A stretch of DNA of 64,000 nucleotides from Halobacterium sp. R2-5 (GCF_011734195.1 NZ_JAANTH010000001.1:1364001-1428000); one strand, 5' to 3'. Counted from the first letter of the stretch, positions 18,956 through 35,569 are shown. Numbers and translations: made by a program. The notes: a model not told the origin generated them from the sequence alone.

Positions 18956-19879
18956 CTAGTTGAGATAGTACTCGATGGTCCGTTCCAAGCCTTCATCGAA
19001 AGAGGTGGTCGGCTCCCAGCCGAGGGACTCGATTTTGCCGGTATCTAGTGCGTATCGTTGGTCGTGGCCGGGGCGATCCTCCACGAACTCGATAAGGTCT
19101 TCCGAAGCGGCGACTTCCTCGATAATACGCTCAGCAACTCCCTTATTCTCAAACTCGTTGCCACTCCCAATATTATAGACCTCTCCGTCCTGTCCCTTCT
19201 CGAGTGCGGTCAGAATTGCTCGGCAATTATCCTTGACGTAAATCCACTCACGAACGTTCGTTCCGTCACCGTACAACGGGAGCGACTTCCCTTCGGCAGC
19301 GCGAGTGGTGAACTTTGGAATTAACTTCTCCTCGTGCTGTCGAGGTCCGTAGTTGTTAGAGGAACGTGTAATAACGACTGGAATGTCGTGCGTCGTATAG
19401 TAGCTCTTCGCGAGCAAGTCCGCGCTGGCCTTAGTCGCAGCGTAGGGATTTCGGGGATTCAACGGGTCCCCCTCGTCAAACACGCCCTCAGCCGTCTCAC
19501 CGTATACTTCATCGGTCGAGACCTGGAGAAAACGGTCGATACCGGCTTCCAGTACCGCGTCAAGAAGCACCTGCGTCCCGCGAATGTTCGTCTCGACAAA
19601 CGGACCTGCACCATTAATGGAGCGGTCAACGTGTGACTCTGCGGCAAAATTCAGGACCACATCCGCGTCGGCAACGAGATCGGAAACGAGCCCCTCGTCA
19701 CTAATGTTCCCCTCAACGAATTCGTGACGGGGATGGTCAAGAACACCCTCAAGGTTGTCGAGCGAGCCCGCATATGTGAGCGCGTCGAGTGTCGTCACTT
19801 CGTGATCGGTCTCCCGCAAGACGAGTCGAACAAAGTTCGATCCGATGAAGCCAGCGCCACCGGTAACGAGTAATTGCAT
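18956..19879 (-). CDS. rfbB: dTDP-glucose 4,6-dehydratase
   Basis: 307 residues of the extended SDR family. Converts dTDP-glucose to dTDP-4-keto-6-deoxyglucose, the second step of dTDP-rhamnose synthesis. NAD motif GGAGFIGS (7-14), catalytic STDEVYGE, active-site Tyr-Lys in PYAATKAS, and substrate stretches SSNNYGPRQHEEKLIPKF and GDGTNVREWIYVKDNC are all present. The length is slightly below the bacterial 340-360, as usual for archaeal forms. The start at 19879 gives the canonical MQLLVTGGAGFIG N-terminus; the long upstream frame runs into rfbD and is rejected. It is divergent from rfbD with a shared 54-bp promoter. Confidence 0.93.
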   Translation of the reverse strand: MQLLVTGGAGFIGSNFVRLVLRETDHEVTTLDALTYAGSLDNLEGVLDHPRHEFVEGNISDEGLVSDLVADADVVLNFAAESHVDRSINGAGPFVETNIRGTQVLLDAVLEAGIDRFLQVSTDEVYGETAEGVFDEGDPLNPRNPYAATKASADLLAKSYYTTHDIPVVITRSSNNYGPRQHEEKLIPKFTTRAAEGKSLPLYGDGTNVREWIYVKDNCRAILTALEKGQDGEVYNIGSGNEFENKGVAERIIEEVAASEDLIEFVEDRPGHDQRYALDTGKIESLGWEPTTSFDEGLERTIEYYLN

Positions 19880-19902
19880 ATCTACATATCCGGATGGCCA
19901 CG

Positions 19903-19908
19903 TTAATT
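19903..19908. promoter_or_regulatory. Symmetric TATA core between rfbB and rfbD
   Basis: TTAATT within CGTTAATTGCC lies 26-31 bases before the rfbD ATG (19934) and 24-29 bases before the rfbB ATG (19879) on the other strand. No second AT-rich core at a suitable distance is obvious in the 54-bp gap, so one TBP site could serve both genes. Confidence 0.45.
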
Positions 19909-19933
19909 GCCTTTCGTCGCCCACTCCTTGAGT

Positions 19934-20836
19934 ATGCAACTCCTGGTCACCGGTGCAGGCGGCCTCCTCGGGAGCAATATTGTTTCGACAGCCGTTCAGG
20001 CTGGCCACGACGTCCTTGGAACTTATCACACAGATAAACCCGACCTGATGGCTCCGCACCGGCGGCTTGATATCACCCACCACGAAACGTTTCGCAAGCT
20101 GGTGAACGAATCTGCTCCCGATGTCGTGGTGAACTGTGCCGCAATGACGGACGTGGATAGCTGCGAATCTAAACCGACCCACGCCGAAAAGGTGAACGGA
20201 CAGGCACCGGGGAATATAGCAGCTATATGTGCCGAACGAAATATCGCATTCGTTCAAGTCTCAACCGATTACGTATTCGACGGCAAGCGCGAGACGAAGT
20301 ATAGAGAAGACATCACTCCGAATCCAATACAGACATACGGTCAGACGAAACTCACCGGGGAACGCCGCGTTTTCGAGTGTCATCCTTCGGCACTCATCAT
20401 TCGGCTCTCATTCGTCTACGGCGTCCATGAGGATACCAGCGATCTCGAAGGATTCCCCGCTTGGGTTGTATCGCGACTCGGCACTGGAGAAGAAGTCCCG
20501 CTATTTGTCGATCAACATATTACTCCTACTCGAGCAGGGCAGGCTGCAGAGACGATTCTCACACTCGTCTCTGATGATGCCGCTGGAACCTATCATATCG
20601 CATGTAGCGAGTGCGTCACCCCCTATAAGTTCGGCGAGGGAATTTGTAACCAGCTCGATATAGATACTTCACTGCTGATGGAGTCGACAACAGCCGATGT
20701 CTCCCGTTCTGCTTCTCGTCCGACACACACTTGCCTCGATGTCGACCGAGTCGAGGCACGACTCGGTCGTCCGCAACCGGATCTCGCGGAGGATCTCCAA
20801 GCGATTCGTTCCTCGCTGGAAGCGGGCGTCAGGTAA
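19934..20836 (+). CDS. rfbD: dTDP-4-dehydrorhamnose reductase
   Basis: 300 residues, RmlD-type SDR. Final step of dTDP-L-rhamnose synthesis, reducing dTDP-4-keto-rhamnose with NAD(P)H. NAD motif GAGGLLGS (7-14), NCAAMTDVDSCE, STDYVFDG, the catalytic Tyr-Lys in YGQTKLTGE and RLSFVYG are in place. The length is normal. It starts at the ATG at 19934, nine codons into a longer open frame, giving an N-terminus parallel to RfbB. It is convergent with the zinc-ribbon gene, 6 bases apart. GC content is lower than the window average. Confidence 0.92.
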   Translation: MQLLVTGAGGLLGSNIVSTAVQAGHDVLGTYHTDKPDLMAPHRRLDITHHETFRKLVNESAPDVVVNCAAMTDVDSCESKPTHAEKVNGQAPGNIAAICAERNIAFVQVSTDYVFDGKRETKYREDITPNPIQTYGQTKLTGERRVFECHPSALIIRLSFVYGVHEDTSDLEGFPAWVVSRLGTGEEVPLFVDQHITPTRAGQAAETILTLVSDDAAGTYHIACSECVTPYKFGEGICNQLDIDTSLLMESTTADVSRSASRPTHTCLDVDRVEARLGRPQPDLAEDLQAIRSSLEAGVR

Positions 20837-20842
20837 TCAGCC

Positions 20843-21025
20843 CTAATCTATCCGGTACTGCTCACGGTGCTCTAAGAAATACTCTTGTTCGTCCTCCGAA
20901 AGGTCCTCAAACCGGAGAATCTCTTCGCAGTTCAGGCCGGGGCACTTCATTACGCGGCGTTTTTCCAGTTCGTTCGCTGCCTCGATAGTTCCACAGTTCG
21001 GACAGGTGAGGGTAATAATGCGCAT
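20843..21025 (-). CDS. 60-residue zinc-ribbon protein
   Basis: 60 residues with TCPNCGTIEAAN and KCPGLNCEEIL, four or five cysteines arranged as a zinc ribbon, followed by an acidic helix (DLSEDEQEYFLEHREQY). Haloarchaea encode many such CPxCG microproteins, some of which affect biofilm or stress behaviour; a specific role is not evident. It begins two bases after the rfbA stop on the same strand, so it is the last gene of an rfbC-rfbA operon. Why a zinc-finger microprotein is coupled to dTDP-sugar synthesis is unclear. Confidence 0.8.
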   Translation of the reverse strand: MRIITLTCPNCGTIEAANELEKRRVMKCPGLNCEEILRFEDLSEDEQEYFLEHREQYRID

Positions 21026-21027
21026 GG

Positions 21028-22101
21028 TTAAAGCTTGAGATTGGAATTCTCACCGATAGTCAGGCGCCGTCCCTCAGGGAGAAGCCCCTCCGAGCTGCTG
21101 ATTGTTGCTCCGCGTCCTACGAGACTGTCGACAATTTTCCCATTCGTGGTCACCTCTGAATCGCCAATAACGACACTGTTCTCGATATGCACGTTTTTGA
21201 TGGTCGTGTTTGGTCCGATCGAAGTGTACGGTCCGACATAGGCTCCTCCCATGACGGTGGATCCTGAAGCGATGGAAATTGGACCGCGAACCACGGCTCC
21301 ATCCTCGATGACCGCGTCGTCCGCTAGGTCAATATGGCCCGACACTTCTGCGCCGTCCTCTATTTCCCCGTCGCGGCTCCCAGGTCGCTCATCGAGCGCC
21401 AGGCGATTGGCATCGAGGATATCCGCTGGTTTGCCTGTATCTTTCCACCACCCTTCAACGACGTGAGAGTCTATTTGATGGCCGCTATCGAGAAGCGACT
21501 GGATGGCATCCGTGATTTCGAGTTCCCCCCGCCAGGATGGCTCCAACTCCTCGATAGCAGCGAAAACTTCGTTAGAAAACACGTACACACCGATGAGCGC
21601 GAGGTCAGTTGGTGGCTGATCCGGCTTTTCGATAAGTTGGACGACGTTTCCACCATCGTCAACGTCGGCGATACCGAACTGAGTCGGATTTTCGACATGC
21701 TGGAGCGCAATACCGGCGCCGTAGTCGCCTGCTTGGAAGCTTTCGACGAGGTCCTCGATGCCCTGGTTGAGAATATTGTCTCCCAAATACATCACGAAAT
21801 CGTCATCGCCGACAAAGTCTCGAGCGCAGCCAGCGGCGTGTGCGAGCCCTAATGGTTCACCTTGGACGATGTACGTGATATCGACGCCGAAGCGAGACCC
21901 GTTACCCAAATATTCCTGAATTTCGTCGCGCCCCTTGTTCCCGAGAATAATCGCGATTTCGGTAATTCCTGCCTCTTTCAGGTCCTCAATACCGTACTGA
22001 AGCACCGGCTTGTTTGCGACGGGCACGAGCTGCTTCGGTCCCGTGTGGGTGATAGGGCGTAGACGCGTCCCAGTTCCACCAGACAATAGCACTCCTTTCA
22101 T
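21028..22101 (-). CDS. rfbA: Glucose-1-phosphate thymidylyltransferase, long form
   Basis: 357 residues. Makes dTDP-glucose from dTTP and glucose-1-phosphate. The nucleotidyltransferase signature LSGGTGTRLRPITHTGPKQL begins at residue 6. DNILNQGIE and GEPLGLAHA (substrate loops) follow, and residues after about 245 form a left-handed beta-helix of hexapeptide repeats (IDLADDAVIEDGAVVRGP). Short bacterial RmlA enzymes lack this tail; the long form is usual in archaea. It lies three bases downstream of rfbC and two upstream of the zinc-ribbon gene. Confidence 0.92.
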   Translation of the reverse strand: MKGVLLSGGTGTRLRPITHTGPKQLVPVANKPVLQYGIEDLKEAGITEIAIILGNKGRDEIQEYLGNGSRFGVDITYIVQGEPLGLAHAAGCARDFVGDDDFVMYLGDNILNQGIEDLVESFQAGDYGAGIALQHVENPTQFGIADVDDGGNVVQLIEKPDQPPTDLALIGVYVFSNEVFAAIEELEPSWRGELEITDAIQSLLDSGHQIDSHVVEGWWKDTGKPADILDANRLALDERPGSRDGEIEDGAEVSGHIDLADDAVIEDGAVVRGPISIASGSTVMGGAYVGPYTSIGPNTTIKNVHIENSVVIGDSEVTTNGKIVDSLVGRGATISSSEGLLPEGRRLTIGENSNLKL

Positions 22102-22104
22102 GAA

Positions 22105-22569
22105 CTATTCGTGGGGTTCCGCGTGCCAGTCAAAAGGTATTTCGTCTGAGTCGTGGGGAATCCGCTCTTCGTCGGGCTCATCATAGTCATACAGCTTCGA
22201 GGGGAAGTTGAGGAGGAATGCTGGCTCGTCGCCGATGGCCTTGAAACCGTGCCAGCAATCGCCGGGGATGCGAACGGCTACCTGATTATGCTCGCCGACG
22301 ACCAACGTGTTTAGTTCACCTTGTGTCGGTGAGTCCTCGCGGTCGTCGTAGATTCCGATTTTGATACGGCCTTTCGGACAGACGAAATGGTCAATCTGAC
22401 CTTCCATATGGCGATGCCACGCGCGCACGATGCCTGGGTAGGTCATTGAGTAGTAAGACATGGCCGGTTCCGGCTCGTAAAGGTCCCAGTCCTCCCGGAA
22501 GACCTCGACTAAGTGACCGCGCTCGTCAGCGTTGACCTGGAGTTCGCGGGTTTCGACGCCTTCAATCAT
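22105..22569 (-). CDS. rfbC: dTDP-4-dehydrorhamnose 3,5-epimerase family protein
   Basis: 154 residues with an RmlC-like cupin core: RGHLVEVFREDWDLYE, the GIVRAWHRH strand (His as candidate catalytic base), HFVCPKGRIKIGIYDD, and VRIPGDCWHGFKAI. Canonical RmlC has about 180 residues and reads RGLHYQ at the His, so this is a shorter, divergent member. Still, its place before rfbA and the presence of rfbB and rfbD make the 3,5-epimerase role of dTDP-rhamnose synthesis the best reading. It starts at the ATG at 22569, the left border of the AT-rich island. Confidence 0.82.
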   Translation of the reverse strand: MIEGVETRELQVNADERGHLVEVFREDWDLYEPEPAMSYYSMTYPGIVRAWHRHMEGQIDHFVCPKGRIKIGIYDDREDSPTQGELNTLVVGEHNQVAVRIPGDCWHGFKAIGDEPAFLLNFPSKLYDYDEPDEERIPHDSDEIPFDWHAEPHE

Positions 22570-22608
22570 AATTAGGTATTATTCTGTTTTGCTGTTAAGG
22601 ATTTGTAC

Positions 22609-23592
22609 TCAACCACGATACCAGTCAGAAAAGTTATCACGTAATGCAAGTATCTTTCGTCCCAAGGATAAGTCCCCCGTTACCATATCTAGGGCACTTA
22701 AGATAAGGAGAAGGTGAGGCCTTAAACCAATCTCATCGGGCAAAGACGTGTTATAGCCAAAAGTCCTCAAGATATATTCAATCACTTGGCGTTCCTTTTC
22801 TTCTTGATAGAGACCCCAAGCCCGTCTGAAATTCTGCCTTCGGCATACTTGGGTTATGTATTCCGAACTTACTCCAGGATAATAAATTGACATTTTCTGG
22901 GCAATATACAACACTTCATTGTACTCTAAGTGATGGTTAGACGAAAAGTTGGAGTCGTGAGTCCTCTTTTTTGCTAAGGCAGACTCAATATGTTCGAATT
23001 CAGCAATTTCAGCAGCTCGAAGCCAGAAGTCATAATCGCCCGCTAATTGAAGCAACTTATCAAAGCCACCCAATCGCTCCCAACAAGACTTTCTGACGGT
23101 TGCATTGGTCATGCTCCTTATGAAATTGTGGCTGAGAAGAAGTTGTTGGATCAATTGGTCTCCCGAAGGTTCAGAATCTGGAAGGGGAATGTCACGTATT
23201 CTTTTCCCAGAAGAGTCAATTCCTTTGAGGTCAGAATAGACCACATCAGCACATTCTTTTTCGTGGCGTCTTTTATGCTCTAGGAGTTTTCCCTCCCCCC
23301 ATTCATCATCTTGATCTAAAAAAGCAAGGTACCTACCATCTGAAGTGTCCACTGCGTCATTAAGATTCTGTGCGATACCAACGTTGTAGTCCTGACTAAT
23401 TAGGATATCTGGCTCAACTGAATGCTGTGAAATAATATCTAAAGTTGCATCATCACTATAATCATCGGAAATTATGAGCTCATAGTCATTGAAATTTTGT
23501 TGTTCGATACTGTCCAGAGCACTTTTTATGAACTGTTCGCCGTTAAATGTTGGCAAGATTATTGAGAAAGTTGGGTCCGCTTCTTTTTGCAT
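22609..23592 (-). CDS. GT2 family glycosyltransferase
   Basis: 327 residues, soluble. FSIILPTFNGEQFIKSALDSI opens a GT2 GT-A domain; ISDDYSDDAT and the donor-binding LDQDDEW follow, then VRKSCWERLGGFDKLLQLAGDYDFWLRA, the usual acceptor-side ED/GDYD element. The C-terminal 80 residues are helical and unassigned. The start MQKEAD (23592) is preferred; a frame extension of 27 residues reaches 23673 but lies in the divergent promoter gap. It lies 39 bases upstream of rfbC on the same strand, so it may head the rfbC-rfbA operon. Base composition is strongly AT-rich. Confidence 0.85.
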   Translation of the reverse strand: MQKEADPTFSIILPTFNGEQFIKSALDSIEQQNFNDYELIISDDYSDDATLDIISQHSVEPDILISQDYNVGIAQNLNDAVDTSDGRYLAFLDQDDEWGEGKLLEHKRRHEKECADVVYSDLKGIDSSGKRIRDIPLPDSEPSGDQLIQQLLLSHNFIRSMTNATVRKSCWERLGGFDKLLQLAGDYDFWLRAAEIAEFEHIESALAKKRTHDSNFSSNHHLEYNEVLYIAQKMSIYYPGVSSEYITQVCRRQNFRRAWGLYQEEKERQVIEYILRTFGYNTSLPDEIGLRPHLLLILSALDMVTGDLSLGRKILALRDNFSDWYRG

Positions 23593-23703
23593 ATCTATAA
23601 ACCCTGACCACATTGACATCCAGAACGTGCATAAGTGCTCCGGAATGATTCTGGCAAAACAAGAAAGAAACACTCAAAACCTAGGGCCATTATTTTCACA
23701 CTA

Positions 23704-24507
23704 ATGGAAGAAAACACCGAATTCGTCTACTCCCTCTCTAGTCAACCCTATCCAAACCACATGGTGAAAGATGCAGTACGGTCAATCATGTCGTTAAAAA
23801 ATTGGGTTAGCCCCGGACAAATTACAGTATATTACACACCTCCGAGGAACGAGCATGATCTAAATGCTCTCCGTGAATTAGAGGTGAATATTGAACTCGT
23901 TGAGAACGAGGTAGAACCCTTCTCATTAAATATTTTAGGTAAGTCAACCCCATATGGGGAGATGTGGCATCTATGTAAGTCGGATGCCGACACCGTCGTT
24001 TGGTTAGATAATGATACTATAGTGACCCGAAACATTTGGGAGGTTATTGAAGGTAATTATGACTTTAAAGCTCGGTCCGAGGAAGACAAATCTACTGATC
24101 CAGGGTGGTATGAAATGTTCGAAAAATTTGACCGGAAACCCATGGATTGGCGGTTTAATGCTGGTTTTCTAGTATTCAAGAACGGCATCCATAAAGAAAT
24201 AAAAGAGGAGTGGAAGATTCTCATGGAATCGGATTTGGGGTATTACAACGCACCCACAATGCAAGATGCACATGCCCTAGCCCTGTGTGTATCAAAATTT
24301 AGATGTGAGAAAATGTCTCCTGAAGAGCACATAATGGAATGGGGAGACAAACCGAAGCCCAACGGATATGTTTACCATTACATTACGGGCTATGATGCTA
24401 AAACTCAGATCAGAAATGCCGTTCGAAGACGTATTCCTGAACCTTTGAAGAAAAAAATCAGAAAGTGGAAATCTCAGGGAACCCCCTCAATGTTTTCTCA
24501 TAAATAA
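23704..24507 (+). CDS. GT-A-fold glycosyltransferase, GT8-like
   Basis: 267 residues. The pattern FVYSLSSQPYPNHMVKDAVRSI, then PGQITVYYTPP, a DADTVVWLDNDTIVTRNIWE block with the metal-binding DxD (LDNDT), and a WRFNAGFLVFKNG segment follow the order of GT8-type or related retaining transferases. The C-terminus is basic (PLKKKIRKWKSQGT), possibly a membrane-surface contact. No sugar can be assigned. Its stop overlaps the next ATG as TAATG, so the four genes that follow form one transcription unit. AT-rich codon use. Confidence 0.7.
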   Translation: MEENTEFVYSLSSQPYPNHMVKDAVRSIMSLKNWVSPGQITVYYTPPRNEHDLNALRELEVNIELVENEVEPFSLNILGKSTPYGEMWHLCKSDADTVVWLDNDTIVTRNIWEVIEGNYDFKARSEEDKSTDPGWYEMFEKFDRKPMDWRFNAGFLVFKNGIHKEIKEEWKILMESDLGYYNAPTMQDAHALALCVSKFRCEKMSPEEHIMEWGDKPKPNGYVYHYITGYDAKTQIRNAVRRRIPEPLKKKIRKWKSQGTPSMFSHK

Positions 24508-25475
24508 TGGAAACCCCTGTCATGCTATACCTGAAACCCCATCACGCACACCGCTCCATGGGGGAGTCAATTGGAGCCGATTTTGTGGAATTAGAACGTG
24601 GAAATCCCCTCAAAAGAATTGTTGCAGCGAAGAATCTTGATCTGGATAACAAGCCGATAATCACAGAAGGCGGTAAACCACTTTTTCAAGCAGTTTGGAT
24701 GAAATTCTTCGGGAATTGCGGTCCGATTATTCACCTTGCGGCGGACGAGACGCTCCCCAATATATTCGATAAATATCCGCATTATAAACATCACGAACGC
24801 TTCATCCACTATTTAGAACATAAATATGTAGACGGAGTGATTGGGATCTCAGACAAAATTTGTGAAAGTGCGAGGCGGTTAGGGATATGTAATGTTCAAA
24901 AGACATATCCATTTACTGAGGAGTGGAAGTTTGAAAAGCTTACAGATACGACCCCAAATCTGGACTCTGACAAGATTTTGGTTGTCGGGCATAATTCAGA
25001 CAAAAATAACCTCCAAACCTTAGAGGAAATAGCCAAGTCCTGCTCCTCAGAGGTGTCTATCGACGTTATCGGTGGTGGGACTGAAACGCTTGATAGTGAA
25101 CACGTTCAGGGTCACGGATTCATAGGGGATGAAGATAGGTTCGTGCAATTCTTTTCGAATGCGAGCTGTTTTCTCTTTCCGGCGGTCTCTCAGATGTTCG
25201 GCGTTGTCGTTCTCGAGGCTATGCATGCTGGCCTCCCTCCCATAGTTACCGAGGATGTCGGAGCCAAAGAGGTGTTGTCGCCCGTGGACGATAGACTGAT
25301 AGCCAAAACCACTCCAGAAGATCTCGCACGGAGTATCGACTGGTATATGAGCCTCCCCCGATCTCAGAAGAAATCATTATCCGGTCAGGTCCGAACGGTC
25401 TCTAAGGAGCATTCACCAATGGAAGGGATTAAGCGGTTTGAGAAGTCCTACGAGAACGTAATCAATGACCTTTAG
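24507..25475 (+). CDS. GT4-type glycosyltransferase (GT-B fold)
   Basis: 322 residues. The C-terminal nucleotide-sugar site is evident: KILVVGHNSDKNN, VQGHGFIGDEDRFVQFFSNASCFLFPA, then FGVVVLEAMHAGLPPIVTEDVGAKEVL, which contains the EX7E-type pattern of GT4 enzymes. The N-terminus (MLYLKPHHAHRSMGESIGAD, then ITEGGKPLFQA) closely parallels the GT encoded at 29266-30282 (FLYYDPHPVHEKMAECVGAE, ILEGGVPLAEG), so the two are paralogues. It overlaps the following phosphatase-superfamily gene by 11 bases. Cytoplasmic; sugar unknown. Confidence 0.85.
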   Translation: METPVMLYLKPHHAHRSMGESIGADFVELERGNPLKRIVAAKNLDLDNKPIITEGGKPLFQAVWMKFFGNCGPIIHLAADETLPNIFDKYPHYKHHERFIHYLEHKYVDGVIGISDKICESARRLGICNVQKTYPFTEEWKFEKLTDTTPNLDSDKILVVGHNSDKNNLQTLEEIAKSCSSEVSIDVIGGGTETLDSEHVQGHGFIGDEDRFVQFFSNASCFLFPAVSQMFGVVVLEAMHAGLPPIVTEDVGAKEVLSPVDDRLIAKTTPEDLARSIDWYMSLPRSQKKSLSGQVRTVSKEHSPMEGIKRFEKSYENVINDL

Positions 25476-26448
25476 CGATTTTCTTGAGGAAGCCCGGACA
25501 GATTACGAAAAATACGGGTTCGAGTCGTTCAAATTTACTGCCCAGGAATTATTCCACGGCCTTCTGAGTCGAGGCGGGTATTGGGTCAATTATGGCGATA
25601 ACTTCTATGACTACGAGTGGGATTTGCTAATTCTCCTTGATGCTTGTAGGTGGGACTTGATGGAGGAGGTCGTAGACGAATATGACTTTGTAGAGGCTCA
25701 CGATAATTTCATGGGTCACTCCTCACATTCCCGGGAATGGCTCCATAAAACATTCATGCAGAATGATAACAGTGGGGTTGGGAAATTACAGGTCTGGAAA
25801 GAAATTATGCAGGATCCAGACAATATTGACATTTTTAAAGAGCACTACAGTATGAAGGAGACCGAGGAGATTGATGAAACGGCCTATATTACCTGGAATT
25901 TCTTTGCGGAAATGCTGGATGGGGACCAATTCGATGAATATGTTCCGGTCGGTAGAGCAAAGTGGGGTGACGGAACCGGGATTCTTGATCCCCGAGAAAT
26001 TACTGACAGAACTATTGAGGTAATGAGGGAACATTCTCCGGAAAGAACGATTGCTCACTATATGCAACCTCATACCCCGTTACGGAAGGAGGCGGAACCA
26101 GACGTTTCTGGGAGCGTCTGGGAACGAATTCAGCGAGGAGAGAAGGATTACGACGAGGCGTGGTCGGAATACAAAGATAATCTGCGGTGGGTCATGGATG
26201 ACGTGGAGCTTCTTCTAGAAAACGTTGACGCAGAAACGGTCGTAATTTCCGCTGACCACGGAAACGTTATTGGGGAATGGGGATGTTACGGTCATCGTCC
26301 ATATGCCCCGATTCCCGCAGTGAAGCGGGTTCCGTGGATCGAAGCTACTGCGAACGACGAAGGAACTTACGAGCCTGAAATAGACGATAAAGAGGAGGCG
26401 AATCAGGAGGAAATAGAGGACAGACTTGAAGCCCTCGGGTATAAATGA
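25465..26448 (+). CDS. Alkaline-phosphatase/sulfatase superfamily enzyme, cytoplasmic
   Basis: 327 residues without signal or membrane helices. Metal-site elements are the N-terminal WDLLILLDACRWD and the C-terminal VVISADHGNVIGEWGCYGHRPYAP, typical of the superfamily. The usual sulfatase CxPSR nucleophile is not present; GHSSHSREWLHKTF occupies the region and supplies Ser residues. It ends EDRLEALGYK, the same closing pattern as the sulfatase at 27918-29273 (EERLRELGYIE). It could hydrolyse or transfer a phosphate- or sulfate-linked group on a glycan precursor. It is between a GT4 and a flippase with overlaps at both ends. Function inferred only. Confidence 0.75.
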   Translation: MTFSDFLEEARTDYEKYGFESFKFTAQELFHGLLSRGGYWVNYGDNFYDYEWDLLILLDACRWDLMEEVVDEYDFVEAHDNFMGHSSHSREWLHKTFMQNDNSGVGKLQVWKEIMQDPDNIDIFKEHYSMKETEEIDETAYITWNFFAEMLDGDQFDEYVPVGRAKWGDGTGILDPREITDRTIEVMREHSPERTIAHYMQPHTPLRKEAEPDVSGSVWERIQRGEKDYDEAWSEYKDNLRWVMDDVELLLENVDAETVVISADHGNVIGEWGCYGHRPYAPIPAVKRVPWIEATANDEGTYEPEIDDKEEANQEEIEDRLEALGYK

Positions 26449-27878
26449 GTGCTGGTAATCTCAGCTTGGGGCTGGAGGCTGCCAAAGCTTTCTCCGCAAA
26501 CCTGATTCAGGCTATTGTTGGATTTGCAGGGACTGTAATCTTTGCGCGGGTTCTTGGTCCGACATCATTCGGTGGTTACTACTTTCTCCTCTCAATCATT
26601 TTCCTGATTAATCGCCCTATCTGGGGTTTTGGGAGTGCTGCGAAGAAACGGTTTTCAGAAAAGAATGCCCCGAGGGGTGAGATTGTATCGGCAATCACTG
26701 TCATCAATTTCATATTGATAGCAATTACCGGGACAGTCCTTTTATTAACCAATACTATTAAATCTCAATCAAACGTTCCTTCCGCGGAGTTAGTCTTCCT
26801 CACGATTCTGGGGAGCATCATCTTCTTCTTCCCCTTCCAGATGCTGATTGGAGCGAAGGGAATGCCAGGGCGTTCGACTTGGCTCGACACACTCCGTTCA
26901 GTACTCACGTTGCCTCTCCAGCTATTGTTTGTTATTTCGGGATTTGGTGCAGCGGGGATGGGATATGGTCTAGCTAGTGCAACACTCCTTACAATTCCTG
27001 TCACGTACTATACTGTTGGTACGAAGCCGACGTTACCGACCCGCGAGACGTTCGCCTCCCTGTGGGAGTTCGCGCGATACAGCATTCCGGGAGCCTTCGT
27101 CGGCAAAGCCTACGACCGATTCGACATCCTCCTCCTGGGAACCATTCTCACCACGGGTGTTGCCGGCCACTACGAGGTCGCGAACAAGCTCACCGTCCCA
27201 GCACTGTTCCTCTCGGGTGCGATTACCTCAGGACTCATGCCGAAGGTGTCGAACCTCCAGAGTAAATCGGAGGACCCCACCACGGATATCTCGAACGCGC
27301 TGTCCTTCGCGAGCCTCCTCGCAATTCCTATCTTCTTCGGTTCGCTTGCCCTCTCGCAGAAACTGGTTGTGACCGCGTACGGCGCGGACTACGCTATGGC
27401 TGCGCCGTACTTGGTGGGTCTCGCGTTCTACAAAGTAATCTCGTCACAGACGTCGGTCCACCGCTCAACGCTCTCTGGTCTCGACCTTCCAAGAATCAAC
27501 CTGAAGTTCTCGACGCTTGCGTTACTCGTAAACGTGGTCCTCGGGGTTGCCCTTGTCTTCGTTATCGGGGGCATCGGCGTGGTCATCGCGACTATCATAG
27601 CCGAAGCAGTGCAGTACTTCGGAGCGATGTACACCGTCAAACGGGAGCTTCCAGCCGTCGAGATCTTTCCAACGACTTTCCTCCAGCAGGTAGGTGCTGG
27701 AGTTGCGATGCTTTTCGCGCTTTATGGTCTCCGAGGTCTCTTTGTTCTCGACTCATTATACTCTGTAGGGCTCATTGTCGGATGTGGAGCGGCGGTGTAC
27801 GGTACTGTGCTTCTGGTAGTGAGTCCCCAACTCCGAGTTACCCTAATGGGTGTTTACGGAGACGTAGCAGGAAAATAG
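26445..27878 (+). CDS. Wzx-like oligosaccharide-lipid flippase
   Basis: 477 residues, about 12-14 hydrophobic helices, polysaccharide-synthase/MATE-like superfamily (Wzx, AglR type). The N-terminus SLGLEAAKAFSANLIQAIVGFAGTVIFARVLGP is characteristic. Probable role: moving the lipid-linked glycan to the outer face before AglB acts. It overlaps the preceding gene by four bases. Unusually, its 5' part (to about codon 180) is AT-rich like the island, whereas the rest is GC-rich like the host chromosome, suggesting a mosaic gene produced by homologous recombination. The frame is intact throughout. Confidence 0.88.
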   Translation: MSAGNLSLGLEAAKAFSANLIQAIVGFAGTVIFARVLGPTSFGGYYFLLSIIFLINRPIWGFGSAAKKRFSEKNAPRGEIVSAITVINFILIAITGTVLLLTNTIKSQSNVPSAELVFLTILGSIIFFFPFQMLIGAKGMPGRSTWLDTLRSVLTLPLQLLFVISGFGAAGMGYGLASATLLTIPVTYYTVGTKPTLPTRETFASLWEFARYSIPGAFVGKAYDRFDILLLGTILTTGVAGHYEVANKLTVPALFLSGAITSGLMPKVSNLQSKSEDPTTDISNALSFASLLAIPIFFGSLALSQKLVVTAYGADYAMAAPYLVGLAFYKVISSQTSVHRSTLSGLDLPRINLKFSTLALLVNVVLGVALVFVIGGIGVVIATIIAEAVQYFGAMYTVKRELPAVEIFPTTFLQQVGAGVAMLFALYGLRGLFVLDSLYSVGLIVGCGAAVYGTVLLVVSPQLRVTLMGVYGDVAGK

Positions 27879-27917
27879 CCGAGCGGCTAGTTTCACGGAG
27901 GGAACAACTAACGTGGG

Positions 27918-29273
27918 TTACTCGATGTATCCCAATTCACGAAGCCGTTCCTCTGTATTTTCATCGAGGTTGTCGTCCCCGCTCCCCACAGCCTCTAGTT
28001 CCGCACGCAACTGTTCCATCAGCGCCTCTTCCAGTTCGACCGGATGCTCTCCCCACCGATTCTCGAGTTCCATCGGGTCATTCGGCCGGTAGTACGCCTC
28101 CCAGCTTTCCTCCGGGAAGTTCTTCGCGCCCCAGTCACCTTCGGGATGGTAGAGAACTTTCCACTCCTCTCCGACGGCCGCAGCCATCCGCTCACCGGCT
28201 TCCATCACGTTCTGGACGGTGACTGTATCGCGATCAGCTCGTTCATCAAATAGTAGAGACGGCCGACCTCCGGGACGCTCCTCCGAACCTGCTAGGTCGA
28301 GAATCGTACTCCCGAGGTTGAGAAGCGACGTCGGCCCGTGGACGCGACCGGTCTCGCCGACGTTCTCCATTACCATAGGAACGCGCGTGACTGTGTCGTA
28401 CATGAGTGGACGATGCCCGTAGTTTGCGTGTTCGCCGAACTCGTCACCGTGATCGCTATGTACGATTAACGGTTCGTCGCCGTAGCCTTCCACGGCAAGT
28501 TTCTCCCGTAGTTGATCGACGAACGCATCCGCGTACCGAATCGTGTTGTCGTAGGCATTCACGATAGAGGGTCGTCGTTCGCCGACGAGTCCGCGGTACC
28601 GGCGCATCGCGTAGTTCAACGCGTACGTCGAACGGATACCAGGCTGGTCCCACTCCTGATATTCAGGTGGGGGGTAGTAGGGATGGTGGGTGTCGATCAG
28701 CAGTACCCAAAGGAAGAATGGCTCCGGCGCATCCTCGACGAACTCGGCGATGTCGTCCCACATCTTCTCCCAGTGGGGCGGCTTCTTCCCGGCAGCCGTT
28801 CGCTTGAGGTCGACAGCGAAGTTCGCCATGTCTACCTTCTGGAGCGCCTCGTAGATGCGCTTCTTCCAGCCGGAGTCGGTGCTGTCGTCCTCGTCCCACA
28901 TGTGGTCCTCGTAGACGTCCCAGCCGCGGTCCCAGCCGAACGAGGAGCTCACGAGCGCGTTGAAGTGGAAACCACCCGTATAGTACCCCTCGTTTTGAAG
29001 GTACTCTTGGAGGAGTTTCCGGTCCGCATTTGCCTCCCGCCAGTGTTGGGGGTTCGGGTACTCCATGCTTCCGCTGGCGTGCTTGCCGGAGAACATTCCG
29101 GTGAAACTCGCTGGCGTCCCGACAGCCGGCACTTGCGGGTCGTCGAACACCAGGCCGTCCTCGGCCATCGCGCTGAGCGTCGGCGTCGTCTCCCGGTCGT
29201 ACCCGTACAGCGGCAAGTGGTCTGCACGGACGCTGTCCCACGAAACCAGAACGATGTTTTGTTTTTCAGTCAT
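27918..29273 (-). CDS. Sulfatase family protein, cytoplasmic
   Basis: 451 residues. N-terminal metal site NIVLVSWDSVRADHLPLYGY; nucleophile region VPAVGTPASFTGMFSGKHA, where a Thr takes the place of the Cys or Ser of CxPSR; VLLIDTHHPYYPP; and a C-terminal metal site VHSDHGDEFGEHANYGHRPLMYD. No signal peptide is present, so it acts in the cytoplasm and may not be a degradative sulfatase. The ending EERLRELGYIE matches the paralogue on the other side of the flippase. It overlaps the upstream GT by eight bases (ATGACTGA). A role in glycan decoration or carrier chemistry is inference. Confidence 0.85.
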   Translation of the reverse strand: MTEKQNIVLVSWDSVRADHLPLYGYDRETTPTLSAMAEDGLVFDDPQVPAVGTPASFTGMFSGKHASGSMEYPNPQHWREANADRKLLQEYLQNEGYYTGGFHFNALVSSSFGWDRGWDVYEDHMWDEDDSTDSGWKKRIYEALQKVDMANFAVDLKRTAAGKKPPHWEKMWDDIAEFVEDAPEPFFLWVLLIDTHHPYYPPPEYQEWDQPGIRSTYALNYAMRRYRGLVGERRPSIVNAYDNTIRYADAFVDQLREKLAVEGYGDEPLIVHSDHGDEFGEHANYGHRPLMYDTVTRVPMVMENVGETGRVHGPTSLLNLGSTILDLAGSEERPGGRPSLLFDERADRDTVTVQNVMEAGERMAAAVGEEWKVLYHPEGDWGAKNFPEESWEAYYRPNDPMELENRWGEHPVELEEALMEQLRAELEAVGSGDDNLDENTEERLRELGYIE

Positions 29274-30282
29274 TTGTGGTGGTGTCGTATCCCAGGTCGG
29301 CGAGGAGGTTTCTCAGCTGGAACGCAAACAAGTCCAGTCCCGTCTCCTCGTCGAACCCAGAGCCGTAGTTTGCTGCACGACGACCGAGCTCAGCGCGCCG
29401 CTCCTGTGGGAGCGAGAAGTACCAGTCGATGGCGTCCGCCACGTCCACCGATGTCGGGTCCGCAAGGAGGCGCCCGTTCACGCCCCGTACGAGCGTAGCC
29501 GTGCCGACACCCGGCGTTGTGACGACAGGTAGGCCCGCGCAGAGTCCCTCTAGGGTCGCCACTGGGAACGCTCCGACTGGCGCTGGGAATACCATCAGCG
29601 CCGCGGACTCGAACAGTTCGACGAGCCGCTGTTCGCTCACGAACCCGTGGGTCGTTATCTGGTCCGTTTCGCTGATCTCCGTCGTGTCGGGACCGACGAA
29701 GTCAACAGTCACGTCGGCGTCGACTCGCGGCATCGCGTCCACGAGGATGTCCTGTCCGTTCTTCTCTCGGTACTTCCCGACACAGAGTATCCGAGTTCCA
29801 TCGAGCGATGAATCGAGTTCGCGAAGTAGCGAGTACCGATTGGCTTCGATGAACGGGTGCGTTACTCGAACTGGGCCGTCAGTGAATCGTTCGGCAATGG
29901 TGGCGATGCGCTCACTCACCGCAAGTGTACCATCGACGAACCGTTGCGCGAATCGATGCGTGAACCGACTCGTTCGACTACGACTCGGCAGCGGGTCGAC
30001 GATGTCGTGGTACGTCGAATCAGCACCGAGTGCGATCACCGGCCCCGACGTTCCCAGCGCCTTCAGGACGGTGCCTTCGGCGAGTGGAACGCCTCCTTCG
30101 AGAATGACCGGCCGGTCACCGAAATCATGGCTTCGGCCTGCGAGAATCCGGTCAATCGGGCTGCCAGTCTGACACTGTACCATCTCGGCGCCCACGCACT
30201 CCGCCATCTTCTCGTGGACTGGATGGGGGTCGTAGTATAGGAAGACTGGCTCTGGTTGTATTTCGAAGTCCGATCGGACCAT
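29266..30282 (-). CDS. GT4-type glycosyltransferase, paralogue of the gene at 24507
   Basis: 338 residues from the ATG at 30282. GT-B fold with RILCVGKYREKNGQDILVDA, ITTHGFVSEQRLVELFESAALMVFPAPVGAFPVATLEGLCAGLPVVTT (GT4 acidic pattern) and the N-terminal EPVFLYYDPHPVHEKMAECVGAE. The frame extends 31 residues upstream, but that piece overlaps the previous gene and lacks family character. It is translationally coupled to the sulfatase gene. Together with the AT-rich GT/phosphatase pair it forms a duplicated module around the flippase. GC-rich codon use like the host. Sugar unknown. Confidence 0.85.
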   Translation of the reverse strand: MVRSDFEIQPEPVFLYYDPHPVHEKMAECVGAEMVQCQTGSPIDRILAGRSHDFGDRPVILEGGVPLAEGTVLKALGTSGPVIALGADSTYHDIVDPLPSRSRTSRFTHRFAQRFVDGTLAVSERIATIAERFTDGPVRVTHPFIEANRYSLLRELDSSLDGTRILCVGKYREKNGQDILVDAMPRVDADVTVDFVGPDTTEISETDQITTHGFVSEQRLVELFESAALMVFPAPVGAFPVATLEGLCAGLPVVTTPGVGTATLVRGVNGRLLADPTSVDVADAIDWYFSLPQERRAELGRRAANYGSGFDEETGLDLFAFQLRNLLADLGYDTTTND

Positions 30283-30310
30283 TCGACGGCCTAGCTCTGG
30301 CAAGGAATCG

Positions 30311-31336
30311 TTAAAAGTACACCGTTTCGACGAACTCGCGCAAGTCCGCGCGGAACCGCTCCGTACTGTAGTCATATGAACGGTTCCGGAGCACTTGTCG
30401 GTCCCAGTCTCCCCGAAGCACGTCCTGGATTCCGGTCACGACGGCTTCGGGTGTCGGTTCGACTAGGACGCCAGTGTCCTCGTCAACCTGATTGTTCGTG
30501 TTCGGTTCGTCAACACCCACCACCGGCGTGCCTGCGGCCATGTATTCGATTGGCGTGATGCCAAAATCCTCTCGCTCCGCCAAGAAAACTCCTGCAGCGC
30601 TTTCCTCAATAGTTGACCTGAGGGTCTGGTCGTCGACGTACCCGAGGATGTCGACGTTCGACGGAGCGGTCCGTTCGATTTCCTCGCGCAGCGGGCCGTC
30701 GCCGACCAGCTTGAGTGTACAGTCCGGTAGTTCTTGCATCGCGTTGACAGCCACACGCGGGCGCTTTCGGTCTTCAAGTCGGCCGACCATCACGAGCTGT
30801 GACTCGACTCGTTCGGTGTCCGACGAGAATTGCTCCACGTCCACCGGTGGTGGAATTACACGGTCGACGCCTTGACCGTACTGCCGGAAGACGCGGGTAG
30901 ACGTGAGCTCGCTGTTCGCGATCAGGTGTGGGATTGCGGACGTTTCGATCCGGTCAACTATCTTGACGAGATAGGAGAACAGGCCGCCAGTGAACCACAG
31001 TGATGCCAGCGGCGGATGGTGGAGGTAGTGGACGTGGAGTTGGTCATCGTACGGCTGGAAGAATTTCGTGGCCGGACCACTCGATAGCACGAGATCGTAT
31101 TCTCGCAGGTCGAGGTTGAGAATCGACCGGGCAGTCCTGATATCGTTGAGCGTGCCGCTCCGTGATGTTTTCCGGAGAAGCGTAACCTCGTTTGGAACCC
31201 GAGTTTCCCACCAACTCCAGTCCTTTCCGGAGAATCCGATGTAGAGGTCCGCGTCGAGGGCGTGAGCAGCCTCCGTGACGACGTTCACCGCACCGCCCGG
31301 GTGGATGGTTCCGTCGTGAACTACCGCAGTCTCCAT
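30311..31336 (-). CDS. GT4 family glycosyltransferase
   Basis: 341 residues, GT-B fold. N-terminal acceptor domain has METAVVHDGTIHPGGAVNVV and VHYLHHPP. C-terminal donor domain has QLVMVGRLEDRKRPRVAVNAM, LKLVGDGPLREEIE, ILGYVDDQTLRSTIEESAAGVFLAEREDFGITPIEYMAAGTPVVG, with the GT4 acidic motif, and the Asn/Gln-rich NTNNQVDEDTG loop. It is probably the first gene of a three-gene minus-strand unit with the next GT and the sulfatase. It is divergent from aglB. Likely builds the lipid-linked glycan in the cytoplasm. Confidence 0.88.
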   Translation of the reverse strand: METAVVHDGTIHPGGAVNVVTEAAHALDADLYIGFSGKDWSWWETRVPNEVTLLRKTSRSGTLNDIRTARSILNLDLREYDLVLSSGPATKFFQPYDDQLHVHYLHHPPLASLWFTGGLFSYLVKIVDRIETSAIPHLIANSELTSTRVFRQYGQGVDRVIPPPVDVEQFSSDTERVESQLVMVGRLEDRKRPRVAVNAMQELPDCTLKLVGDGPLREEIERTAPSNVDILGYVDDQTLRSTIEESAAGVFLAEREDFGITPIEYMAAGTPVVGVDEPNTNNQVDEDTGVLVEPTPEAVVTGIQDVLRGDWDRQVLRNRSYDYSTERFRADLREFVETVYF

Positions 31337-31411
31337 TGATTCCGGTATCTACCTCGGGTACTGCTAAAACCATCGATGTTGGCGGTTACCCAGTTCCACA
31401 ACTTCACAAGG

Positions 31412-31417
31412 CTTATT
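31412..31417 (+). promoter_or_regulatory. TATA-like box for aglB
   Basis: CTTATT within AAGGCTTATTCGC lies 26-31 bases before the ATG at 31443, so aglB is probably leaderless, with DUF368 on the same message. Confidence 0.5.
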
Positions 31418-31442
31418 CGCCCGCTGTCAGTCCCTACCACCA

Positions 31443-34400
31443 ATGAGCGAGACGAACGAGGCATCGAGGGATTCCTCCACGACGCCCGATTCAGCCCTCG
31501 ACGCTCTCGAAAACTGGTACCACGTACCCGTGCTGGGCGCTGTCCTCGCGTTCATGTTCTGGGTGCGCGTGCAGGCGTGGGAGAACTTCACGCAGAACGG
31601 CGAAGTGTACTTCTCCGGGAACGACGCGTACTACCACTTCCGGCAGGTTATGTACACGGTCCAGAACTGGCCGTCGACGATGCCATACGATATTTGGACC
31701 GGGTTCCCAACCGGAGTGGGCGTCGGTCAGTTCGGGACGCTGTTCGACCAAATCGTCGCGACAGTCGCACTTCTCGTCGGGCTCGGCAGCCCCTCCCAAG
31801 AGACCGTCTCGATGACACTGCTGTTCGCTCCGCCGGTCTTCGCCGCACTACTCACGATTCCGACGTACCTCATCGGGAAGCGTCTGGGCGGCCGGCTCGG
31901 CGGCGTCTTCGCCGCAGTCATTCTCGGACTCCTTCCAGGTTACTTCCTCTCGCGGAGCCTCGTCGGCGCTGCGGACCACAACGGCGCGGAGCCGCTGTTC
32001 CAGGCGTTCGCAGTCCTCGCGACGATGGTCGCGCTCGCCGTCGCGGAACGCGAGAAACCCGTCTACGAGCAGTTCCTCGACCGTGACGTCGCAGGCCTCC
32101 GCCGTGTCGTCGGCTGGAGCGTCCTCGCCGGCGCCGCCACCGCGGCCTACATGTGGGTGTGGCCGCCCGGCATCCTGCTGGTCGGCATCTTCGGCGTGTT
32201 CTACCTCGTGAAGCTGACAAGCGACTACTACAGCGGCACGAGCCCAGACCACGTTGCCGTCGTCGGCGCCGTCAGCTCGGTGACAACCGGCCTCCTGATG
32301 CTGGTGCCGCTGTCGACGCTCTCCTTCTCTCCGTCCCAGTTCTCTATCCTCCAGCCGCTGTTCTCGATCGCAGTCGGTGTCGGCGCGGTGTTCCTGGCGT
32401 GGCTCGCCCGCGAGTGGGACAACCGTGAACTCGACGCCACTACGTACCCGCTCGCAGTGTTGGGTATCCTCGTCGTCGCGCTCGGTGTGACGACGGTCGT
32501 GCTCCCCAACTTCTGGGGGATGCTCCAGTCGAATCTCCTGCGCTTCGTCGGCTTCAGTGCCGGCGCAGCGACCCGCACCATCGGCGAGGCGCAGCCGTTC
32601 CTTTCGCGGACGGGCCGCTACGGCCTGGGAATGTTCGGCGTCATCTTCCTCGAGTACGGACTCGCGTTCTTCACGGCGCTCCTCGGCGCGGCGTGGATTC
32701 TCCTCCGACCGCACTTCCGCAGCGGCAACCCGCGACGCATCGGCGGTGCGGCGGCCGCAGTCCTCGTGGTCGGTCTCGTGTTCGCGGTGCCGGGCATCGG
32801 TGACGCGGTCGGCACGCTCTTCGGCGTGGACGGCCAGCTCGGCTCGCTCGCCATCGTCGGCGTCACGCTGCTCGCGGTCACGGTGACCGGCGAGTACGAC
32901 GCGGAGAAACTGCTCGTGGTCGTCTGGGGTGCGTTCATCGCCTCGGCGGCGTTCACGCAGGTGCGGTTCAACTACTACCTCGTCGTGCCGGTCGTCGTGC
33001 TGAACGCGTACGTGCTCAAAGTCGTGCTCGGCTTCGTGAGCCTCGACAAGCCGGCCTCCCAGGTCGAGGACGTCGACTGGTACCAGGTCGGCACGGTCGT
33101 CGCGGTCGTCCTGCTGGTGCTCGTCCCCATTGCGGCACCCGTAGCTGCGTCCGCGACCGGCGGCGGCGCCAGCCCGGTTCGACTGACGAACAACCAGGGC
33201 CAGCAGGTGCCCCTGCAGTCGGCGACGACAGTCGGCGCGTCGAACGGTCCCGGCGCGGTGACAGTGTGGGACGACGCGATGGAGTGGATGGACGAGAACA
33301 CGCCCGACCAGGGTACCTACGGCGGCGCGGACAACGCCGACCAGATGGAGTACTACGGGACGTACAGCCAGACCGACGACTACGACTACCCCGAGGGTGC
33401 GTACGGCGTGATGTCGTGGTGGGACTACGGCCACTGGATGACCGTCGAGGGCCACACCATCCCGGTCGCGAACCCGTTCCAGCAGCACGCGAGTGAGGCC
33501 GCGAACTTCCTGCTCGCGCAGAACGAGACGGAGGCCGCGAACGCGCTCGAAGTCGTCAACGAGGACGACGCGAAGACGCGCTACGTCGCGGTGGATTCCC
33601 AGATGGTCTCGCCCCAGGAGAAGTTCAGCGCGCCGACGGTCTTCTACGACGGCCCGCGAGATCTCACCTACCGTGACTACGTCACGCAGACGTACGCCGG
33701 CCAGTTCTCCGACGGGCAGCTCCAGCGGCAGCCCCAGCCCTACTTCCAGCTCCGGGAGCAGCCGTACTACGAGTCGCTGATGGTGCGGCTCTACCAGTAC
33801 CACGGCAGCGCGAAGCAGCCCGACCCGCTGGTCGTCGACTGGGAGTCCGACCCCGGCGCGCCGGTCTTCGACGCGAGCCAGCAGAGCCCGTTCCGGCAGT
33901 TCGACACGCTGAGTGAGGCCGAAGCGTACGTGGCGAACGACTCCACGTCCCAGATCGGTGGGTACGGGCGCAGCCCGCCGGAGTACGTCGACGCCCTCCA
34001 GCACTACCGGCTCATCGGGTCGAGCGACGACACCGGCGTGAAGCTCTTCGAGCGCGTCGAGGGCGCGACCGTCGAGGGCACCGGGCCCGCGAACACGACG
34101 GTGACCGCGTCGGTCACGCTGAACATGACCGACCTCTCGCAGGGCGGGCAGACGCCGCAGTTCACGTACACGCAGCGCGCCGAGACCGGGCCGGACGGCG
34201 AGTTCACGATGACGCTCCCGTACTCGACGACCGGCTACGACGAGTACGGCCCCGAGAACGGCTACACGAACACGTCCGTCCGCGGCGCGGGCCCCTACGA
34301 GTTCACGACGGGGCCGACGACCTCGGAGGACCTGACGACCGTCGAGTGGAACGCGACTGCCGACGTCACCGAGGGACAGGTCCTCGGCACTGAGGAGACC

Positions 34401-34634
34401 ACGACCGAGGTCGACCTGGAGCGCCACGTCGTCGACCGCCCGGAAGGCGCGGAGCAGAACGACACGAGCAACGAGACGCAGTCGCTGGCGTCGCCGGACG
34501 CGGTGACGACCGAGACGTCCACTGCGTCCGCGGACTCGGGTAGCGCGCCGGTCGACGCGCAGTCGCCGTTCGGCGCGGCCGCAGCGCTCGCGGCGCCAGC
34601 GGTCGTCGGCGCGCTCGCCCGCCGGTACGCCTGA
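31443..34634 (+). CDS. aglB: Dolichyl-monophosphooligosaccharide-protein transferase AglB
   Basis: 1063 residues, near the length of Haloferax AglB. The archaeal STT3 enzyme transfers the glycan from its dolichyl phosphate carrier to Asn in N-X-S/T sites of exported proteins such as the S-layer glycoprotein. The N-terminal half is a multi-helix membrane domain; its first loop has SGNDAYYHFRQ (catalytic, metal-binding) and a later GAADHNGAEPLFQ. The catalytic WWDYG motif is at 659-663. The C-terminal extracellular part is acidic and ends in a helix (AAALAAPAVVGALARRYA). Start by TATA-like box spacing. Its stop overlaps the next start. Confidence 0.96.
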   Translation: MSETNEASRDSSTTPDSALDALENWYHVPVLGAVLAFMFWVRVQAWENFTQNGEVYFSGNDAYYHFRQVMYTVQNWPSTMPYDIWTGFPTGVGVGQFGTLFDQIVATVALLVGLGSPSQETVSMTLLFAPPVFAALLTIPTYLIGKRLGGRLGGVFAAVILGLLPGYFLSRSLVGAADHNGAEPLFQAFAVLATMVALAVAEREKPVYEQFLDRDVAGLRRVVGWSVLAGAATAAYMWVWPPGILLVGIFGVFYLVKLTSDYYSGTSPDHVAVVGAVSSVTTGLLMLVPLSTLSFSPSQFSILQPLFSIAVGVGAVFLAWLAREWDNRELDATTYPLAVLGILVVALGVTTVVLPNFWGMLQSNLLRFVGFSAGAATRTIGEAQPFLSRTGRYGLGMFGVIFLEYGLAFFTALLGAAWILLRPHFRSGNPRRIGGAAAAVLVVGLVFAVPGIGDAVGTLFGVDGQLGSLAIVGVTLLAVTVTGEYDAEKLLVVVWGAFIASAAFTQVRFNYYLVVPVVVLNAYVLKVVLGFVSLDKPASQVEDVDWYQVGTVVAVVLLVLVPIAAPVAASATGGGASPVRLTNNQGQQVPLQSATTVGASNGPGAVTVWDDAMEWMDENTPDQGTYGGADNADQMEYYGTYSQTDDYDYPEGAYGVMSWWDYGHWMTVEGHTIPVANPFQQHASEAANFLLAQNETEAANALEVVNEDDAKTRYVAVDSQMVSPQEKFSAPTVFYDGPRDLTYRDYVTQTYAGQFSDGQLQRQPQPYFQLREQPYYESLMVRLYQYHGSAKQPDPLVVDWESDPGAPVFDASQQSPFRQFDTLSEAEAYVANDSTSQIGGYGRSPPEYVDALQHYRLIGSSDDTGVKLFERVEGATVEGTGPANTTVTASVTLNMTDLSQGGQTPQFTYTQRAETGPDGEFTMTLPYSTTGYDEYGPENGYTNTSVRGAGPYEFTTGPTTSEDLTTVEWNATADVTEGQVLGTEETTTEVDLERHVVDRPEGAEQNDTSNETQSLASPDAVTTETSTASADSGSAPVDAQSPFGAAAALAAPAVVGALARRYA

Positions 34635-35569
34635 TGGCGGGACGCGACTGGCTGGCGGTCTACCTGAAGGGCGCGGCGATGGGCGCCGCCGACGCCGTCC
34701 CCGGCGTCTCCGGTGGGACGATCGCGCTCATCACGGGCATCTACGAACGCCTCGTCGGCGCCATCGCGGCGCTCGACCCGGTGGACGCGCTCGGCCTGCT
34801 CGCACTCGTGCCGAAACTCGGCAGCCGTGACGCCCGCGAGGAGTTCGCGGAGACGCTCGTCCGGATGGACGTGCCGTTCCTCGCACTGCTCGGATTCGGC
34901 GTCGTGACCGCGGTCGTCACGGTCGCGAACCTCGTCCACGTCGCCATCGCGGACTTCCCGGGCGTGACGTTCGCGTTCTTCTTCGGGCTCATCGCGGCGT
35001 CGGTCGTCGTGCTGCTCAGTGAGGTGTCCGTCGACACGCCCCGCCGAATCGCGGCCGGCGTCGTCGGGTTCGTGCTCGCGTTCGTCCTGAGCGGGCAGGC
35101 CCAGTCCGGCGCGCTCCCCGAGGTCCTCCCCGTGGTCTTCCTCGCGGGCGCCGTCGCCATCTGCGCGATGGTGCTGCCGGGCGTCTCGGGGTCGCTGCTG
35201 CTGTTGACGTTCGGGATGTACGACACGATGACGTCGGCGGTCAGCGACGTCACGAGCGCCGCGCTCGACGGCGACGTCGCCGCGAGCGTAGAGCCGTTGA
35301 CGACGCTCGTGGTGTTCACGGGGGGCGCGGTCGTCGGCGTGCTGTCGTTCGCGCGCGTCGTCGAGTGGGCGCTCGAACACTACCGCGCGGCGACGCTGAC
35401 GTTCCTCGTCGCGCTCATGGCGGGCGCGCTGCGGGCGCCGGCCATCCAGATCACCGACGCGACCCCCGAGTGGACTGCGACCCGGGCGGGCGTCCTGCTC
35501 GCCTCCGCGGTCGTCGGCGCGGCGGCCGTGCTCGTCATCGACGCGACGACGGACGACCTCGACTACTGA
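34634..35569 (+). CDS. DUF368 polytopic membrane protein, candidate polyprenyl-phosphate translocase
   Basis: 311 residues with about eight or more hydrophobic helices. Two symmetrical PGVSG motifs (23-27 in ADAVPGVSGGTIALITGIYE, and about 182-186 in VLPGVSGSLLLLTFGMYD) are the DUF368 signature. Bacterial DUF368 proteins have been shown to recycle undecaprenyl phosphate across the membrane. Here the ATG overlaps the aglB stop as TGATG, so the protein is made in step with the oligosaccharyltransferase. Return of dolichyl phosphate to the cytoplasmic face after glycan transfer is the obvious hypothesis, but it is not proven for archaea by anything in this sequence. Confidence 0.9.
   Translation: MAGRDWLAVYLKGAAMGAADAVPGVSGGTIALITGIYERLVGAIAALDPVDALGLLALVPKLGSRDAREEFAETLVRMDVPFLALLGFGVVTAVVTVANLVHVAIADFPGVTFAFFFGLIAASVVVLLSEVSVDTPRRIAAGVVGFVLAFVLSGQAQSGALPEVLPVVFLAGAVAICAMVLPGVSGSLLLLTFGMYDTMTSAVSDVTSAALDGDVAASVEPLTTLVVFTGGAVVGVLSFARVVEWALEHYRAATLTFLVALMAGALRAPAIQITDATPEWTATRAGVLLASAVVGAAAVLVIDATTDDLDY

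Follow-up and report, generated by a model that had tools for sequence, protein, structure and literature searches.

A conserved pair of the oligosaccharyltransferase gene aglB and a DUF368 gene in haloarchaea: a candidate return flippase for dolichyl phosphate

Proteins of the DUF368 family recycle carrier lipids in bacteria. In Sit et al. 2022 (PMC9876793), VCA0040 of Vibrio cholerae and its Staphylococcus aureus relative are shown to recycle undecaprenyl phosphate by returning it to the cytoplasmic face, and the DUF368 protein HVO_RS12060 of Haloferax volcanii at least partly rescues a V. cholerae dvca0040 mutant. The same paper notes an apparent enrichment of the family in Halobacteria and suggests a relevance to dolichol phosphate translocation. 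In Halobacterium salinarum and H. volcanii, the oligosaccharyltransferase AglB draws glycans from dolichyl phosphate (PMC11980604, PMC3871713), so the bare carrier is left on the outside; the descriptions of archaeal N-glycosylation that we consulted do not settle how it gets back to the cytoplasmic side. Here, we analyze a stretch of 64,000 nucleotides (nt) from Halobacterium sp. R2-5 (the window; coordinates are counted from its first letter) in which aglB overlaps a DUF368 gene. An original prediction had noted the bacterial activity and proposed the DUF368 protein as the missing carrier-recycling step of archaeal N-glycosylation. We find it likely that the protein is a haloarchaeal polyprenyl-phosphate translocase (PopT/VCA0040 family) that returns dolichyl phosphate; its gene is paired with aglB. 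The features of the locus are as follows.

31408-31419, + strand: possible TATA-like element of the haloarchaeal type, AAGGCTTATTCG, read from the sequence only
31443-34634, + strand: aglB, archaeal oligosaccharyltransferase of the STT3 family, 1063 amino acids (TIGR04154, Pfam, WWDYG motif)
34632-34634, + strand: aglB stop codon TGA
34632-34636, + strand: TGATG junction, one-base overlap (-1 spacing) of the aglB stop with the DUF368 start
34634-34636, + strand: ATG start codon of the DUF368 gene
34634-35569, + strand: DUF368/PF04018 (PopT, VCA0040-like) membrane protein, 311 amino acids, proposed inward dolichyl-phosphate translocase

Base 34634 is common to the aglB stop and the DUF368 start, and the shared TGATG lies exactly where the original prediction had placed it. 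The spacing of -1 nt falls within the range for termination-reinitiation (same strand, overlap or gap of about -8 to +10 nt). By eye, the 30 nt ahead of the DUF368 start hold no GGAGG-like motif, which is compatible with this mode of translation. In H. volcanii, 9 of 9 overlapping gene pairs tested were strictly translation-coupled (PMC6728339), and we infer coupled translation for the pair of Halobacterium sp. R2-5. By itself, a -1 or -4 overlap says little, because about 30% of gene pairs on the same strand are spaced this way in H. volcanii (PMC10666635). The TATA-like element sits about 25-35 nt ahead of the aglB start, a position that would fit a leaderless bicistronic mRNA. A bacterial sigma-70 promoter scan, a type unsuited to archaea, found nothing.

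AglB scored 865.8 bits against TIGR04154, the archaeal STT3 subfamily (cut-off 450), exceeded the cut-offs for PF22627, PF02516, and PF18079, and carries its WWDYG motif at residue 659. The DUF368 protein scored 219.3 bits against PF04018 (cut-off 26), a family whose current Pfam description reads undecaprenyl phosphate translocase-like. This was its sole Pfam match, and PF09335 (DedA/UptA, VTT domain) gave none. The two PGVSG motifs that had been read in the protein are confirmed at residues 23-27 and 182-186, and both sites are mostly invariant across 72 archaeal sequences. The two halves of the protein are homologous to each other (E 6.9e-12), with one motif per half, and in an AlphaFold2 model (all-helical, mean pLDDT 94) each motif is predicted to fall at a break between helices. 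The closest named loci belong to Halobacterium species (72-85% identity of the DUF368 protein). A Vibrio sp. homologue is 38% identical over 274 aligned residues; it keeps 25 of the 25 residues that are invariant among the 72 archaeal sequences and 19 of the 24 near-invariant positions. No PDB chain was related by sequence to the protein or its alignment, a Foldseek search with the model gave nothing better than E 0.28, and no relative was found on viral contigs. A second structure comparison gave a ZIP transporter as its best match (Z 9.4 over 161 residues). This score is middling and, for a helical protein, may reflect only a common arrangement; we claim no fold.

We surveyed the neighborhood of aglB, as the original prediction had proposed, in a sample of 59 genomes from the haloarchaeal class (31 genera, 8 families); these genomes are mutually related, and counts among them are not independent events. 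The AglB family was present in 59/59 genomes and DUF368 in 58/59. A same-strand DUF368 gene lies just downstream of aglB in 40 of the 59, with no intervening gene in 38 of these pairs. The 40 pairs span 20 of the 31 genera and 7 of the 8 families, showing that conservation extends beyond close relatives, so the survey did not refute the original prediction on this point, and chance cannot account for an adjacency kept this widely. DUF368 starts were picked by eye from the conserved N terminus (one locus had no clear start). The spacing is -4 to +6 nt in 27 of the 38 immediate pairs, 12 of which are true -1 or -4 overlaps, and this range lies within that found for termination-reinitiation in H. 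volcanii (PMC6728339, PMC10666635). The flanks vary. We called 14 kinds of gene 3' of DUF368, none common to more than three genera, and the gene before aglB also varies, a divergent aglG being the commonest (10 genera); genes were called by similarity among loci, so lone genes may be missed and the variety may be somewhat inflated. Thus, the pair has lasted longer than its surroundings.

A tree of 82 DUF368 proteins placed the 62 haloarchaeal sequences together in one clade with full support. Every deep haloarchaeal branch includes copies linked to aglB, suggesting an old pairing within haloarchaea. One clade of 18 rows is entirely unlinked to aglB, linked and unlinked copies occur together in three genomes, and 18 of the 19 unpaired haloarchaeal genomes carry DUF368 elsewhere. 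We considered decay in place of the linked copy and found no DUF368 remnants at the unpaired aglB loci. At several of these loci, the neighbor that lies 3' of DUF368 in relatives (c15, c13, or c32) directly follows aglB. Because remnants are absent, the neighbors are the same, and DUF368 lies elsewhere, it looks like the linked copy was repeatedly replaced by another copy, so that the function was retained. Lineages in which an unlinked copy stands in place of the linked one are ready natural comparison strains. Loci that lack the linked gene without a remnant include L118, L123, L124, L126, L127, and L128, for which L057, L071, and L075 serve as comparison.

The picture differs outside the haloarchaea. 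Among 163 other Halobacteriota genomes, 152 had an STT3 match and 28 had DUF368, and in none of the 28 does DUF368 adjoin STT3. We therefore limit the pairing claim to haloarchaea: "archaeal N-glycosylation" was too wide a scope, since we found the pair only in haloarchaea and most other STT3-bearing Halobacteriota have no DUF368. A sugar-nucleotide epimerase/dehydratase-type gene stands beside DUF368 in about half of 20 non-haloarchaeal loci examined. In three genomes of one non-halophilic family, DUF368 and STT3 lie 13-14 kb apart (L046:8474-10442 and its relatives L044 and L049). There, DUF368 lies after genes for a uracil permease and a uracil phosphoribosyltransferase, and we therefore did not treat the distance as linkage.

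Taken together, the family match, the conserved coupling to aglB, and the cross-domain complementation with the H. volcanii homologue (PMC9876793) make the return of dolichyl phosphate a well-supported candidate function. The best reading of the gene is a return flippase, and the pair probably couples carrier use to carrier recycling. AglB moves the glycan from dolichyl phosphate onto protein at the outer face, where free dolichyl phosphate remains; the DUF368 protein would then carry this lipid back across the membrane, and AglJ-type enzymes could recharge it at the cytoplasmic face. Re-initiation after aglB would match the amount of recycler to that of AglB, the source of its substrate. We observed family membership, the gene overlap, the conserved pairing, and the presence of another DUF368 gene where the linked copy is gone; the substrate, the direction of transport, and physical contact with AglB are what we infer for haloarchaea. 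Pairs with re-initiation spacing in H. volcanii are enriched for subunits of complexes (45% versus 6%, PMC10666635). A complex of AglB and DUF368 is thus conceivable, although we consider it doubtful: freed dolichyl phosphate would be handed directly to the translocase, coupled translation would fix the stoichiometry, and the outer-face carrier pool would stay low.

The pair closes an N-glycosylation island (16643-35569) that holds aglJ, rmlA- and rmlB-like genes, several glycosyltransferases, a Wzx-type flippase gene, aglB, and DUF368. Two further genes of the island concern the carrier.

16643-17560, - strand: aglJ, for the enzyme that loads the first sugar onto dolichyl phosphate (TIGR04182, 439.1 bits, cut-off 325)
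26445-27878, + strand: MOP/Wzx-type flippase gene (PF13440 and PF01943 over their cut-offs)

The product of the latter is likely to flip the glycan-charged carrier outward. With aglJ, sugar-nucleotide genes, the Wzx-type flippase, and aglB, the island thus offers a candidate for each other carrier step. It also contains two sulfatase/alkaline-phosphatase-like open reading frames, at 25465-26448 (recognized by eye only) and 27918-29273 (PF00884); in the aglB cluster of Hbt. salinarum, similarly annotated genes act as glycan sulfotransferases (PMC11980604). AglB itself ends in a segment beyond its last recognized domain (residues ~1010-1063, 34470-34634), a Thr/Ser-rich stretch followed by a short hydrophobic tail that ends Arg-Arg-Tyr-Ala, SPFGAAAALAAPAVVGALARRYA, and resembles a C-terminal anchor or sorting-type tail.

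Several points weigh against a dolichyl-phosphate translocase coupled to AglB. The pair is not universal: aglB and DUF368 are unpaired in 19 of the 59 haloarchaeal genomes, and 11 of the 38 immediate pairs have gaps of at least 38 nt (one unclear), too long for re-initiation. One genome, G021 (locus L094), has AglB and no DUF368 was found in it, the sole exception among the 59; it is a draft of 120 contigs (1.9 Mb, 98% complete) that carries DedA-domain proteins. STT3 occurs without DUF368 in most non-halophilic Halobacteriota. The R2-5 protein scored 195.8 and 96.8 bits against NF052564 and NF052563, the NCBIfam equivalogs of named polyprenyl-phosphate (PopT) transporters, and the cut-off for both is 400. 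It is thus a PF04018 family member below the level of a called equivalog. We found no assay of any haloarchaeal DUF368 protein in its own host, nor of the R2-5 protein. In bacteria, DUF368 proteins are required only in some conditions (alkaline pH, high Na+; PMC9876793), and by analogy archaea, too, may depend on them only conditionally. Lastly, DedA-domain (PF09335) proteins occur in 59/59 haloarchaea, a count of domain matches in which the subfamilies of PMC10127716 are pooled. DUF368 is therefore a well-placed candidate for the carrier-recycling step, as first proposed, and not the sole one, as G021 with AglB and DedA illustrates.

These points bear on four other explanations. The one closest to ours, which we regard as a real possibility although somewhat less probable than not, is that DUF368 recycles polyprenyl phosphates for all carrier pathways (N-glycans, mannose carriers, exopolysaccharide); its pairing with aglB would then mirror the place of AglB as the main producer of free carrier, with no dedicated partnership. 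It posits the same activity with a wider clientele and so overlaps our reading. The unlinked DUF368 clade is what remains in many genomes without a linked copy, DUF368 genes outside the haloarchaea lie away from aglB, and bacterial relatives recycle undecaprenyl phosphate generally (PMC9876793); yet the partner is specifically aglB, and it was kept through many rearrangements of the flanks. Fairly unlikely, in our view, is that DedA proteins do most haloarchaeal dolichyl-phosphate recycling, leaving DUF368 as a back-up under alkaline or high-sodium conditions. The ubiquity of PF09335 proteins, the content of G021, the presence of STT3 in most DUF368-free Halobacteriota, and the conditional need for both families in bacteria (same source) would all fit. 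However, 58 of the 59 haloarchaea have kept DUF368, it is the DUF368 gene that pairs with aglB, and the permanently high sodium of halophiles would place the family in constant use.

It is quite improbable that the pairing is functionless, an ancestral gene order kept by inertia. The tree does suggest that the pair was present early in haloarchaea, and short overlaps are common in such genomes (PMC10666635), but the pair persisted through many replacements of its neighbors on both sides, and the short spacing was retained in 27 of 38 pairs. Least probable is that DUF368 exports glycan-charged dolichyl phosphate instead of importing the empty carrier. Its gene does adjoin aglB, whose product consumes the lipid-linked glycan once exported; but Wzx-type proteins have already been proposed for export (Agl29 in Hbt. 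salinarum, PMC11980604; AglR and Agl15 in H. volcanii, PMC3871713), such a gene is already present in the window at 26445-27878, and the substrate of the bacterial relatives is the bare carrier phosphate. A translocase that returns dolichyl phosphate and is encoded next to aglB remains our preferred reading.

The idea is partly known. Sit et al. (PMC9876793) already complemented a bacterium with a DUF368 protein of archaeal origin and refer to dolichol phosphate; in its archaeal passages, that paper mentions neither aglB nor N-glycosylation. In the literature we found on DUF368 or COG2035 with archaea, the aglB-DUF368 pair is unreported, many subscription papers, including a parallel PopT paper, lying outside this search; the conserved pair thus appears undescribed in the literature searched. 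The N-glycosylation cluster studied in Hbt. salinarum (VNG1048G-VNG1068G, PMC4335974) is bounded by aglB, and a neighbor just past aglB would fall outside that survey. What is new is therefore the conserved, often overlapping oligosaccharyltransferase-DUF368 pair in haloarchaea, the translocase family itself being known. An aglB-paired gene from a family with bacterial translocase activity makes the return step testable in tractable organisms.

How does the R2-5 protein compare with the described systems? DedA/UptA proteins (PF09335) are also polyprenyl-phosphate translocases and overlap in function with DUF368 in bacteria, but they form a separate family. AglR, Agl15, and Agl29, which we take to be of the Wzx/MOP type, are likewise membrane proteins that work on dolichyl-phosphate carriers in the same haloarchaeal pathway, but they belong to a different family and are the proposed outward movers of the glycan-charged carrier. 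HVO_RS12060 is, like the R2-5 protein, a haloarchaeal DUF368 protein, and the 62 sampled haloarchaeal sequences form one clade. VCA0040 of V. cholerae and PopT of S. aureus share with the R2-5 protein the Pfam family and the invariant residues, including both PGVSG-type motifs, a likeness measured on the Vibrio sp. homologue (25 of 25 invariant residues, about 38% identity). Their substrate is undecaprenyl phosphate for peptidoglycan, whereas the R2-5 protein is expected to act on dolichyl phosphate, and its gene is paired with that of an oligosaccharyltransferase.

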